Below are positions 1 through 40,828 of a DNA stretch of 47,365 bases, piece by piece (positions within the stretch are counted from its first letter, which is position 1; the number at the start of each line of letters is the position of its first letter). The DNA comes from Bacteroidota bacterium. GTDB taxonomy: Bacteria > Bacteroidota > Bacteroidia > Bacteroidales > VadinHA17. Location: the NCBI GenBank assembly GCA_011049175.1, contig DSCJ01000044.1, forward strand, positions 1-47,365, read 5' to 3'. The position numbers and the translations under genes were made by a program. The notes beneath the pieces were generated by a model. It was not told the origin of the DNA. It saw only the letters and a list, made by a program, of their open reading frames with translations, and ran no database searches.

Positions 1-1
1 C

Positions 2-118
2 GATCAAATCAAAGAAAGCGAGAAGGTTAAATTATGGTTCTGGCTGTCATTAAGTGTTGTAAATGCACTTGCTGAATTGAAAAAATTAAAAATGGGCACA
101 CCATATATTAGTACATAG
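2..118 (+). CDS. C-terminal end of an unidentified protein (partial)
   Basis: An open frame enters from the left edge and runs 38 codons to a TAG stop at 116-118. The peptide is charged at first (Lys/Glu-rich), then has a Trp/Leu/Val-rich stretch and ends in TPYIST. It looks like a real protein tail because the frame is open from the first base and has an amphipathic composition, but no family is recognisable. It is richer in A+T than the genes that follow. It converges with the large T9SS protein gene on the other strand. It could also be chance open sequence. Confidence 0.35.
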   Translation, partial: DQIKESEKVKLWFWLSLSVVNALAELKKLKMGTPYIST

Positions 119-120
119 CC

Positions 121-171
121 AGAAAACTACGTAGTATGCAACGTAGAAAACTACGTAGTATGCAACGTAGA
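121..171. repeat. Tandem 24-bp repeat containing CTACGTAG palindromes
   Basis: A 24-base unit at 122-145 is repeated exactly at 146-169. Each unit contains the 8-base palindrome CTACGTAG (127-134 and 151-158) and a partial second copy, AACGTAG. The array lies in the convergent gap between the gene tail ending at 118 and the minus-strand gene ending at 186. The first 16 bases, AGAAAACTACGTAGTA, recur exactly at 39758-39773. Function unknown. Confidence 0.9.
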
Positions 172-38381: not shown

Positions 38382-38422
38382 AAAAATAAATAAAAACCGC
38401 CTGCCGGTTTTTATTTATTTTT
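38382..38422 (-). terminator. Bidirectional-type terminator with 18-bp perfect stem
   Basis: Bases 38382-38399 pair without mismatch with 38405-38422 around a 5-base loop. The core is ACCG/CGGT, flanked by long A and T tracts. It overlaps the last codons and stop of the 38411-39445 gene and should end its transcript before the GH2 promoter. Confidence 0.85.
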
Positions 38423-39445
38423 CCCGGAAATAAAATTCACGCTGAGACCGATGCGGTATGATCCGTAGATATGAAACCCTCCGGCATCGCCGTAATCCTC
38501 ATAATTCCAACCTTCGTGCAAACAGTTTTCGATGGTATAATCCTGTGCTATTGGTGCGCCTCCTTCAAAAAACAGGCTTGCCCCGAAGCTTTTCGATTTG
38601 TCCCAGAAATCCACGCCAAAATTCATGAATAAAGGCCCGTGAACATCCAGGGAGGTATTTCCGTAGGTTTGTTCTTTGCTGTCGTTATAAATCCCCACAT
38701 TGATCGAATAGTAACCGTAATAGATACCTATCCATGGCTGTAACTGGTTTTTGTTCAGGGGATAAATCCTGGCGCCCAGCCGCATGCCGGTGGTATTGAT
38801 ATTGTAATTGGCGTTTTCAGTGAACGGGCCCATGATATCGCTTTCCCATCCGGTCATTTCGTAAATCCAGCTACTGGTGGCATACCCTCCTGTGTAGGCA
38901 ACCGGGGTGGAACTGCTGAAATTGCTGATATCGAAATAAACGGAAATGAAAGGAGCCACCCTGTAGAAAATATTGACCCCGAATCCGAGTCCGGTGTAAG
39001 GATCGCCTCCGGCAGGGGTGAATTCACCTCCCTGTGGCCTGGCCGGTACATTGCCCCCGTATATGCCGTGGTGGGCGAGCACTTGAAATCCTCCCCCCAG
39101 ATATGGTTTGAAAACCGGGTATTCTTCCGCTCCGGCCCCGGTTTCAGAGGTATCGGTTTCGGCGGCCTGTGGTTCCTTTTCTGCAGCATTGAAAACATCT
39201 TCCGTTCCGTTTTCATACCTGATCCTGACAATTTCTGAAATTTCGAGCACATAGGAAGGACCGTTCAGGTTATCATACCTTTTGTATGTAACCTTATCGG
39301 ATCCGACCTCCGTAACCCGGGCCTGGATTTCTTCGCCCGAGCGCTTCAGGATGATGTCCTGGGAATAGGTGTAGGATGCAATGCTGTACAGGATCAGGCA
39401 CCACAGGGCTACCGGTCCGGTAAATGGAATGCGGCTATTTTTCAT
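38411..39445 (-). CDS. Predicted outer-membrane beta-barrel-type protein of unknown function
   Basis: A 344-residue exported protein with a signal peptide of about 29 residues ending near YSQ. Residues about 30-85 (DIILKRSGEEIQARV, then VTYKRYDN and SEIVRIRYENG) form a small beta domain common at the N-terminus of Bacteroidota envelope proteins. An acidic, Ala/Glu/Thr-rich linker follows (about 88-112). The rest has alternating aromatic and polar beta strands such as FISVYFDISNF and GIYYGYYSINVGIY, ending in IGLSVNFISGKNK, which suggests an outer-membrane barrel. I cannot name the family or its role. It is co-directional with xerD but 471 bases away, with its transcript closed by the 38382-38422 hairpin. 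Confidence 0.8.
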   Translation of the reverse strand: MKNSRIPFTGPVALWCLILYSIASYTYSQDIILKRSGEEIQARVTEVGSDKVTYKRYDNLNGPSYVLEISEIVRIRYENGTEDVFNAAEKEPQAAETDTSETGAGAEEYPVFKPYLGGGFQVLAHHGIYGGNVPARPQGGEFTPAGGDPYTGLGFGVNIFYRVAPFISVYFDISNFSSSTPVAYTGGYATSSWIYEMTGWESDIMGPFTENANYNINTTGMRLGARIYPLNKNQLQPWIGIYYGYYSINVGIYNDSKEQTYGNTSLDVHGPLFMNFGVDFWDKSKSFGASLFFEGGAPIAQDYTIENCLHEGWNYEDYGDAGGFHIYGSYRIGLSVNFISGKNK

Positions 39446-39916
39446 GGATAGGAAGTTGGTTCATTTAAAACGGGTAATTGAAATTTTTTTTTCGGTAATT
39501 TAATACCGAATACTATATGTTGTACTCACCTGAAGCAGATTTTTTCATATTATTTTCTCACTTTCCATTTTTCTTCCCAATTTTTCAATGAAGAGAAAAA
39601 ATGGGGTGGTGGGATGGATATCCTCATTGAATAAAATATTCAGAAAAATCGTGCTATTCACCTGATGGGTGAAAGCATATATTCAGTATATGACTGAATG
39701 ACAGAATGATATGAAATATCGGAACCGGCCGGTGATTTTGACGAAGTACTTGTCCGGAGAAAACTACGTAGTAAACTACGTAGATAACTACGTAGGTAAC
39801 TACGTAGTTAGATATTAAATATATATCAGAATAACAAAATAATAATCTTCAATATTTTCGCAAAACGAGCAAAGAGTATTTACAGAAAAAGTACAAACCC
39901 GGGAGAATCAATTGGT
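39446..39916. other. 471-bp gene-free region between xerD and the outer-membrane-type gene
   Basis: It is A+T-rich with no credible open frame or RNA fold recognised. It contains a T run with the inverted repeat TTCGGTA/TACCGAA (39491-39497, 39504-39510), a second inverted repeat ATTCAGT/ACTGAAT (39681-39687, 39693-39699), and the CTACGTAG array at 39758-39810. Confidence 0.6.
39758..39810. repeat. Four-copy CTACGTAG array with 12-bp period
   Basis: CTACGTAG occurs at 39764, 39776, 39788 and 39800, exactly 12 bases apart, each preceded by AA. The last copy sits in the 14-base palindrome TAACTACGTAGTTA (39797-39810). The first 16 bases are identical to the array at position 121. A 12-bp period is a little over one helical turn, so a multimeric DNA-binding protein could read it. 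Function unknown. Confidence 0.9.
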
Positions 39917-40828
39917 CTAAACATTCCTTCCTCTGGGATGGAAGCTGATGATGGCTTCCCGCAGGTATTCCCTGTCGAGGTGGGTGTAAATTTCAGTTGT
40001 GAGGATGGATTCATGTCCCAGCATTTCCTGTACTGCCCTGAGGTCGGCCCCTCCGTCGATGAGGTGGGTGGCAAAGGAGTGGCGGAAAGTGTGGGGACTG
40101 ACATTTTTTTTGATTCCCGCCCTGGCCGCCATGTCTTTTACGATTTCAAACACCATGGCCCGGGTGAGTCTGTGGCCCCTCCGGTTCAGGAACACCATGT
40201 CTTCTTCCCCGCGCCTGATGTCCATCATCCCGCGGCGGATCTCCATCCATAGGCTGATCTCTTTCATGGCTTTGCTGCCGATGGGGACCATTCTTTCCTT
40301 ATTGCCTTTTCCCTCGATCCGGATGAATCCCTGCTTAAGGTACAGATTCGACATTTTCAGGTTCACCAGTTCCGATACGCGCAAACCGCAGCTGTACATG
40401 GTTTCGATCATGGCTTTGTTTCGCTGGCCTGTGGGGCTGCTAAGATCAAGGGTGTCAAGCATGGCATCGATCTCGTGCACGGTGAGCACCTCGGGCAATT
40501 TCCGTCCTGTTTTCGGAGCTTCCAGCAGGGCTGAAGGATCGGAGGGAATTTTATCATCCAGCAACAGGTAACGAAAAAACGACCGGATACCTGAAACAAT
40601 GCGTGCCTGCGAGCGGGCCCCGATGCCCAGGGAAGACAATTGTCCCAGGTATTCCTGCAGGAGTGTCAGGTCAACTTCTTGCGGCGGGCGGCCGGGGTAC
40701 TGACGTTCCAGCCAGGAGGTAAATCCCCGCACATCCCTTTCGTAGGCTTTCAGGGTATTCGGGGAAACCGATTTCTCGAGACGCAGGTAACTCAGGTACG
40801 ACCGGATATGTTCCTGCCAGATGCTCAT
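39917..40828 (-). CDS. xerD: Tyrosine recombinase XerD
   Basis: A 303-residue site-specific recombinase of the size of XerC/XerD, which resolve chromosome dimers at dif with FtsK. The N-terminal SAM-like core-binding domain (about 5-90, with YLRLEKSVSPNTLKAYERD) is followed by the catalytic domain. The active-site set is present: Arg in YSCGLRVSEL, His-x-x-Arg in HTFRHSFATHL, His in LGHESI and Tyr in TEIYTHLD. Length and sequence point to the housekeeping enzyme and not a phage or transposon integrase; no att sites or mobile genes are seen. It is divergent from aroQ across 103 bases. XerC versus XerD cannot be settled with certainty from one gene. Confidence 0.92.
   Translation of the reverse strand: MSIWQEHIRSYLSYLRLEKSVSPNTLKAYERDVRGFTSWLERQYPGRPPQEVDLTLLQEYLGQLSSLGIGARSQARIVSGIRSFFRYLLLDDKIPSDPSALLEAPKTGRKLPEVLTVHEIDAMLDTLDLSSPTGQRNKAMIETMYSCGLRVSELVNLKMSNLYLKQGFIRIEGKGNKERMVPIGSKAMKEISLWMEIRRGMMDIRRGEEDMVFLNRRGHRLTRAMVFEIVKDMAARAGIKKNVSPHTFRHSFATHLIDGGADLRAVQEMLGHESILTTEIYTHLDREYLREAIISFHPRGRNV

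Follow-up and report, generated by a model that had tools for sequence, protein, structure and literature searches.

The window analysed here, a whole stretch of 47,365 nucleotides from contig DSCJ01000044.1 of a Bacteroidales genome of the VadinHA17 lineage (GenBank GCA_011049175.1, referred to below as G000), carries a ladder of four identical short palindromes between two genes of the minus strand, downstream of a xerD-type gene and upstream of the next gene. The features at this locus are the following.

38411..39445, minus strand: 344-aa predicted protein, outer-membrane-type according to an earlier note, its start codon 318 bp from the array
39762..39809, no strand: the array as four abutting 12-bp units NNCTACGTAGNN, family consensus AxCTACGTAGxT
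39764..39807, no strand: four exact CTACGTAG palindromes with period 12 and linkers TAAA/ATAA/GTAA, from an exact unit search
39764..39783, minus strand: terminator-like 8-bp stem with TTTA loop and TTTTCT tail, 3' of xerD (1 found versus a mean of 0.3 in shuffles)
39917..40828, minus strand: xerD-type tyrosine recombinase (Pfam Phage_integrase, E 2.7e-49), 109 bp from the array

An exact search of the window for CTACGTAG places the units of this array at 39764, 39776, 39788 and 39800. The four palindromes on an exact 12-bp ladder, described in the earlier note from the letters of the window, are confirmed, with an exact core of 39764-39807. The dinucleotides TA, AT, GT and TT, which the same note gave as varying linkers, are indeed the two bases after each unit, but the linkers themselves are 4 nt long. 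The exact unit occurs six times in the whole window versus 0.15 expected, and a count of at least six was reached in 0 of 100 dinucleotide shuffles. The whole reported array folds at -26.4 kcal/mol (z -7.0), and its terminator-like hairpin may have a secondary role on the xerD strand. The protein of 38411..39445 gave zero matches in a Pfam search at E 0.001. A short 21-bp tandem repeat lies inside xerD at 40208-40247 (Tandem Repeats Finder, 84% matches).

A dispersed family of tiled palindromes

In the window's own assembly G000 (3.24 Mb, 139 contigs), exact pairs of the form CTACGTAG-N4-CTACGTAG number 59 versus 0 in the reversed control, and pairs with at most two mismatches number 100 versus 1. 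Among the genomes of the family, pairs were found in 15 of 117, belonging to 7 of 15 genera (59 in G000, 69 in G011, 24 in G003, 17 in G004, 41 in G005, 47 in G006, 53 in G007, 60 in G008, 39 in G009, 17 in G012, 15 in G027, 9 in G026, 5 in G024, and 1 each in G021 and G033). The sites are missing from the other 102, and any such system would therefore be lineage-specific. A scan of GTDB species genomes returned 99 stretches with three copies in register, in records titled Bacteroidales, Bacteroidetes, Bacteroidota, Chlorobiota or uncultured bacterium, and the two-copy pattern was seen in 5 IMG/VR (phage) stretches, as a raw count. Judged by these counts and by the alignments described below, the reported array belongs to a set of dozens of chromosomal sites that are nearly identical and mostly conserved in position. 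A published description of a CTACGTAG array was absent from the matches listed in searches of open-access text for the 8-mer and for regularly spaced chromosomal motifs. An RNA-family search gave four matches up to E 1, all to eukaryotic families and far below gathering scores.

For the anatomy of the repeat, 149 arrays were collected with at most one mismatch per unit, of which 87 hold three units, 30 four, 27 two and 5 five. Consecutive exact units less than 100 bp apart are separated by 12 bp 295 times, by 24 bp 7 times and by 84 bp once, on a viral contig with different repeats; most loci were fetched by a 12-bp pattern, so that first pairs are ascertained and the count is full only for further units. 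Isolated exact units, element-tip half-arrays included, number 39 in 1.82 Mb against an expectation of about 28 (one per 65,536 bases); as this excess is not large, what stands out is the tandem arrangement. Slippage as the sole origin of the repeat is out, since the linkers vary within and between arrays while the palindromes stay the same. Gene conversion between arrays should homogenise the linkers too, yet these vary by locus.

Beyond the palindrome, T stands at the second position outside the array in 97-100% of cases in G005, G008 and G012 and in 60-77% in the other groups, and the linkers favour N-T-A-N. On these base preferences, constraint reaches past the 8-bp palindrome to an abutting 12-bp unit, AxCTACGTAGxT, an extension that is weaker in G000 (77% and 58%). 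The sites of G006 and G007 have mostly two units, with G+C-rich linkers that are often GCGC. In four loci from ERR599159 bins 42 and 108 (L116, L172, L175, L186), three-copy arrays carry a uniform GTAT/ATAC linker pair that is variable elsewhere.

The arrays show little regard for transcription units. Placement was counted for 110 arrays, the other 39 of the 149 being dropped because they are on short loci or near a locus end, and as raw counts from mechanically called open reading frames, 49 lie in tandem, 21 in convergent and 18 in divergent gaps, 18 overlap a reading frame and 4 are at an edge. Several of the 18 overlapping arrays are in real genes by Pfam, and the arrays as a whole are mostly intergenic. 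The nearest neighbours within less than 450 bp present their 3' end 111 times and their 5' end 101 times, with 21 overlapping, and these counts contain no preference for positions upstream of genes (promoters) or at 3' ends. In the protein clusters listed, no gene families recur beside unrelated arrays except sulfatase and GH3-type paralogues.

The earlier note had likened the array to cooperative operator arrays. A local operator for xerD or its neighbour is not supported, as members of the family occupy gene gaps of all three orientations and can also lie within genes. A local xerD operator is also rejected on direct comparison, as an exact unit was found in 0 of 10 xerD orthologue loci with fetched flanks of up to 1.5 kb. 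In G008 an array lies about 2.1 kb downstream of its xerD, and in G011, the other genome of the window's own genus, no close xerD orthologue was found (best 32% identity). We treat xerD as a neighbour of the array. The likeness to iterons drawn in the same note, taken as those of plasmids, is not supported either, since the sites of G000 are dispersed over many contigs (59 pairs) and not clustered at one origin.

Conservation between genomes

The conservation of the arrays was assessed with coding anchors beside 19 G000 arrays, searched in the congener G011; arrays at the tips of contigs C4, C8 and C18 were left out, and about seven of the 19 already had a known syntenic congener array. Anchors were found for 13 and not for six, the window's own array among the latter, and two of the 13 run off the contig before the array, leaving 11 assessable arrays. 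At least two exact units in register are present at the orthologous place in 8 of these 11. The other three tell against the reading favoured below: array C8b is partly eroded in G011 (one exact unit and one with one mismatch), C2b, inside a gene, has degenerate units only, and C34 has no units.

Ten loci could be aligned (poorly so, by the automatic method, for C8b and C11), and across them identical bases make up 231/246 (94%) of the palindromes, 46/84 (55%) of the linkers and 746/1140 (65%) of the 60-bp flanks. With C34 added the figures are 241/278, 46/96 and 815/1260. Without C13 and C6 they are 192/207 (93%), 37/72 (51%) and 636/917 (69%), flank identity being lowered at these two loci because one G000 flank is a mobile-element end. 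The palindromes and period are kept while the linkers drift between congeners, which supports the selection on palindrome and 12-bp phase that the earlier note had read from a single array. The alignment of relatives that it proposed also bears it out: copy number varies at orthologous loci of the family (4 vs 3, 5 vs 4, 2 vs 4) and the period stays at 12. Between G000 and G011 the copies are 4 vs 3 at C27, 3 vs 4 at C6 and 2 vs 4 at C13, where an insertion sequence sits in G000.

Over longer distances, 30 two-sided syntenic pairs were found among the 149 arrays, several with flanks only 67-78% identical; as they were found by pattern, they show positional conservation, and their identity is not unbiased. 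Among the 15 arrays of the JAMOUS genome, six could be paired with an array in JALVJE or WFRO by synteny on both sides, and one more (L196) by synteny on one side. These alignments show that array positions are often kept between species and sometimes between genera. An orthologous neighbour is shared across genera by 11 of 63 genus-g1 arrays versus 7 of 71 control points, a comparison in which the control points overlap and have about twice the genes each, and the G000 and G011 loci are partly the same; cross-genus sharing of neighbours is suggestive only.

Some arrays are kept within genes, at loci found by exact pattern, so that eroded relatives would be missed. In a gene for a LuxC-like acyl-CoA reductase (Pfam LuxC, E 2.3e-6) the array runs in frame, as an NYV-type repeat, in three metagenome-assembled genomes (MAGs), namely JALVJE, WFRO and JAMOUS. 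Its three palindromes are the same in 3/3 of these, the linkers differ, and the flanks are 74% and 79% identical between JALVJE and JAMOUS. In a glycosyltransferase gene the stop codon falls within the first palindrome in 3/3. In such aligned loci the palindrome and its period are shown to be constrained at the DNA level, even within coding frames. At two further loci (L019:4978-5060 and L157:262-400) the array forms N-terminal codons, as LRS/LRR repeats, of a predicted MGH1-like/trehalase-like glycoside hydrolase reading frame; the two species differ in unit number (5 versus 4), and the frame is maintained by the 12-bp period.

An insertion sequence at the arrays

The first bases of the window hold a second ladder, absent from the earlier note, beside the end of an insertion sequence.

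1..120, plus strand: right end of a multicopy insertion sequence (...ACATAGCC), with ends repeated at G000 contig tips
121..128, plus strand: putative 8-bp target duplication AGAAAACT, across a linker, from insertion-sequence flank comparison
127..170, no strand: second array, CTACGTAG, CAACGTAG, CTACGTAG, CAACGTAG, with period 12, adjoining the insertion-sequence end

The units of the second ladder are CTACGTAG at 127 and 151 and CAACGTAG at 139 and 163. The element was recognised by its ends, its terminal reading-frame fragment, imperfect inverted ends (GGCT[AT]TGT...) and target duplications. Window bases 2-115 plus the stop encode the last 38 aa of its putative transposase, a peptide with zero matches in Pfam, NCBIfam and plasmid searches. 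The element may be IS1595-like, going by its 8-bp duplication and GGC ends. In G000 its right end was found at 21 contig tips and its left end at 25, and the element body is absent from that assembly as searched.

Beyond the element end, AG-N4-CTACGT[AT]G or a near form follows at 22 of 25 left and 17 of 21 right tips of G000 (strict pattern). Two of the seven misses, L091 (left) and C81 (right), are arrays with a degenerate unit, and the remaining five lie outside arrays (L093, L096, C42, C9 and C70). Right and left flanks have exact 8-mers in common, uniquely so in the case of AATTCCAG, AAACGGAT and TGATAACT, which shows 8-bp target duplications. Inside arrays the duplication is AGNNNNCT, with insertion as CTACGT^AGNNNNCT^ACGTAG, so that the element enters the 4-bp linker. 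At two paired insertion sites outside arrays (AATTCCAG and AAACGGAT), ACGT stands directly 5' of the duplication, as derived by hand. The transposon prefers palindrome arrays as insertion targets, and a diverged relative of it in G026 is at two array-type sites as well. The occurrence of arrays at mobile-element ends in G000 is thus explained by insertion of the element into arrays, and we estimate that element-interrupted arrays are roughly as many as intact ones in this genome, a tolerance that tells against the reading favoured below. Among drafts, which may lack the element, its C-terminal peptide was found in 1 of 295 genomes of the order and its left end in 4 of 14 array-bearing genomes, two of these being short weak matches.

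At the tips of G000 contigs C8 and C6, arrays adjoin the end of another repeat (GGTTTGCTGATTTTC...); it lies at L033:1-119, at G000:C12:4-122 and at the end of L032. As the C8 tip sequence is present twice in the genome, a second element may use the arrays too. An element that targets a conserved family of chromosomal sites is a clear added case of such insertion preference, and it shows how short-read assemblies become fragmented, since it breaks the G000 assembly at its own targets.

Spacing of the sites and their possible role

Along the chromosome, the sites are probably spread more evenly than chance, a lead that has support from several genomes. In G007, the best-sampled genome (41 longest contigs, 2.04 Mb, 33 arrays, about one site per 62 kb), they are under-dispersed (chi-square 16.3 vs 40.0 simulated, P=5e-5), with 1 interval below 20 kb vs 7.2 expected. 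In G006 (C1-C85 of about 130 contigs, 27 arrays) the chi-square test gave P=0.03 and intervals below 20 kb numbered 1 vs 4.0 (P=0.06), with no deficit of same-contig pairs (7 vs 7.8 expected). In G000 (C1-C20, exact pairs only; element tips without an exact pair were left out because contigs end there, as was the degenerate C5 array) the chi-square test gave P=0.20, and there were 0 intervals below 40 kb vs 3.3 (P=0.01), a limit picked after the intervals were seen. Five MAGs in the three-copy scan had 0 same-contig pairs vs 6.3 expected (P=0.002, with the JAMOUS genome size assumed). These tests are not fully independent, as the idea arose from the positions in G000, G007 and G006, and all the genomes are drafts. 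On G000 contig C1 (114.8 kb, L428-L433) the sole exact unit is the element-tip unit at the contig end; its GC skew changes sign near 90 kb and is -0.28 at 70-80 kb, in a draft of unordered contigs.

Several known kinds of repeat resemble these sites. A REP/BIME-like repeat, that is, a small mobile palindrome that a transposase has spread and whose activity, if it has any, is that of a DNA or RNA hairpin, would also be dispersed and mostly intergenic, and the three arrays tested fold strongly (z -7 to -11). Facing linkers are reverse-complementary more often than in shuffles (10 of 30 four-copy arrays vs 2.0 and 13 of 87 three-copy arrays vs 3.5, related loci being counted separately), and at one locus they change in a compensatory manner between species, from CTGG/CCAG to GCAG/CTGC. 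Template-switching at hairpins during replication could give such an excess without selection, and the facing linkers are not perfectly complementary in 20 of the 30 four-copy and 74 of the 87 three-copy arrays. A Y1 (RAYT-type) transposase is lacking in 4 of the 14 array-bearing genomes, the window's own included (PF01797 is in 10 of these drafts and absent from G000, G004, G009 and G026), and of 38 Y1 matches in all, 30 loci were read, 4 of which have exact units in their fetched flanks, two of the four being sub-cut-off. REPs are defined, in the account of PMC3733652, by a stem-loop with an unpaired terminal GTAG or CGTC, the GTAG type being transposase-linked and CGTC types occurring without a dedicated transposase too. 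Here such a terminal tag is absent, as GTAG and CTAC form the palindrome itself. REPs are entered at a fixed point, in some cases the symmetry axis, by ISPsy8, ISPpu9/10, ISRm22 and other insertion sequences, with duplications of 0, 2, 3 or 6 bp among those described in PMC1525189. The arrays are likewise dispersed palindromes and insertion hot spots. They are mostly but not strictly intergenic (18/110 overlap a mechanical reading frame), the duplication is 8 bp, no RAYT gene is consistently present, and array positions are conserved between species, sometimes genera, and at times in coding frames, which together make a REP origin unlikely.

The resemblance to protein sites raises the operator array of a global transcription factor that regulates the flanking genes: the palindrome, constant spacing and constrained flanking bases would suit it, and some arrays are less than 150 bp from mechanically called start codons. 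Cooperative operator arrays and plasmid iterons or centromere repeats are tandem protein-site-like repeats at constant period, and the arrays are alike in this respect; here, in contrast, there are dozens of dispersed short chromosomal arrays with no promoter preference. Upstream positions are not enriched (101 5' vs 111 3' neighbours), convergent gaps are as common as divergent ones (21 vs 18), arrays occur inside genes or across a stop codon, and recurrence beside unrelated arrays is limited to the two paralogue families among the clusters listed, so that we consider this role distinctly unlikely. The stable hairpin, with its terminator-like match and TTTTCT tail on the xerD strand, could instead speak for a bidirectional transcription terminator or an mRNA-stability hairpin, to which we give a small chance in view of the divergent and intragenic arrays and the want of a general T-tract, T being strong only at the first two outside positions in most groups. 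That the arrays are a by-product of the insertion sequence, through repeated target duplication and excision, is hardly credible, even with the element at arrays in G000 and its diverged relative likewise in G026: the duplication is 8 bp and not 12, element ends were not found in most array-bearing genomes (drafts, which may lack the element), and at C13, a site of the element in G000, all four units of the array are intact in the congener G011. An element-borne repeat is rejected on the same 8-bp duplications and intact orthologous array. The REP, promoter-operator and iteron readings all fit worse than dispersed protein sites.

The palindrome ladder, the extra constrained bases, the indifference to transcription and the in-frame conservation point to duplex DNA read by a predicted dimeric protein. 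We therefore favour, at slightly less than even confidence, dispersed multi-dimer sites for a predicted chromosome-acting protein of the SlmA/Noc kind. Each site consists of 2-5 copies of AxCTACGTAGxT (core CTACGTAG) tiled without gaps; one dimer of a sequence-specific protein is predicted to bind each palindrome, and adjacent dimers on the ladder would bind cooperatively. A period of 12 bp is about 1.14 turns by our own arithmetic, and neighbouring dimers would lie next to each other, rotated by about 50 degrees, a geometry compatible with cooperative binding. Such a protein may work at the scale of the chromosome, in its organisation, its segregation or the control of the division site, and not at one promoter, and the insertion sequence would exploit the sites by entering the linker.

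As summarised in PMC4726725, SlmA sites in E. coli number about 24-52 and Noc sites in B. subtilis about 70 per chromosome, both palindromic and both under-represented near the terminus, and SlmA occupies its site as a dimer of dimers. The chromosomes studied here likewise carry palindromic sites that are dispersed and number in the tens; the differences are the 2-5 palindromes tiled at exactly 12 bp and the apparently rather even spacing. An equivalent site system in Bacteroidota was absent from the titles and abstract starts of the matches listed in searches on nucleoid occlusion and nucleoid proteins.

If the sites are as they look, they could serve directly as bait, with a mutant series already included, in the search for a chromosome-acting DNA-binding protein of the Bacteroidota. 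It is possible, though on balance doubtful, that an uncultured Bacteroidales lineage marks its DNA at chromosome scale, with tens of selected, evenly spread tiled-palindrome sites through which a predicted oligomerising protein would organise or segregate the chromosome or police its division.
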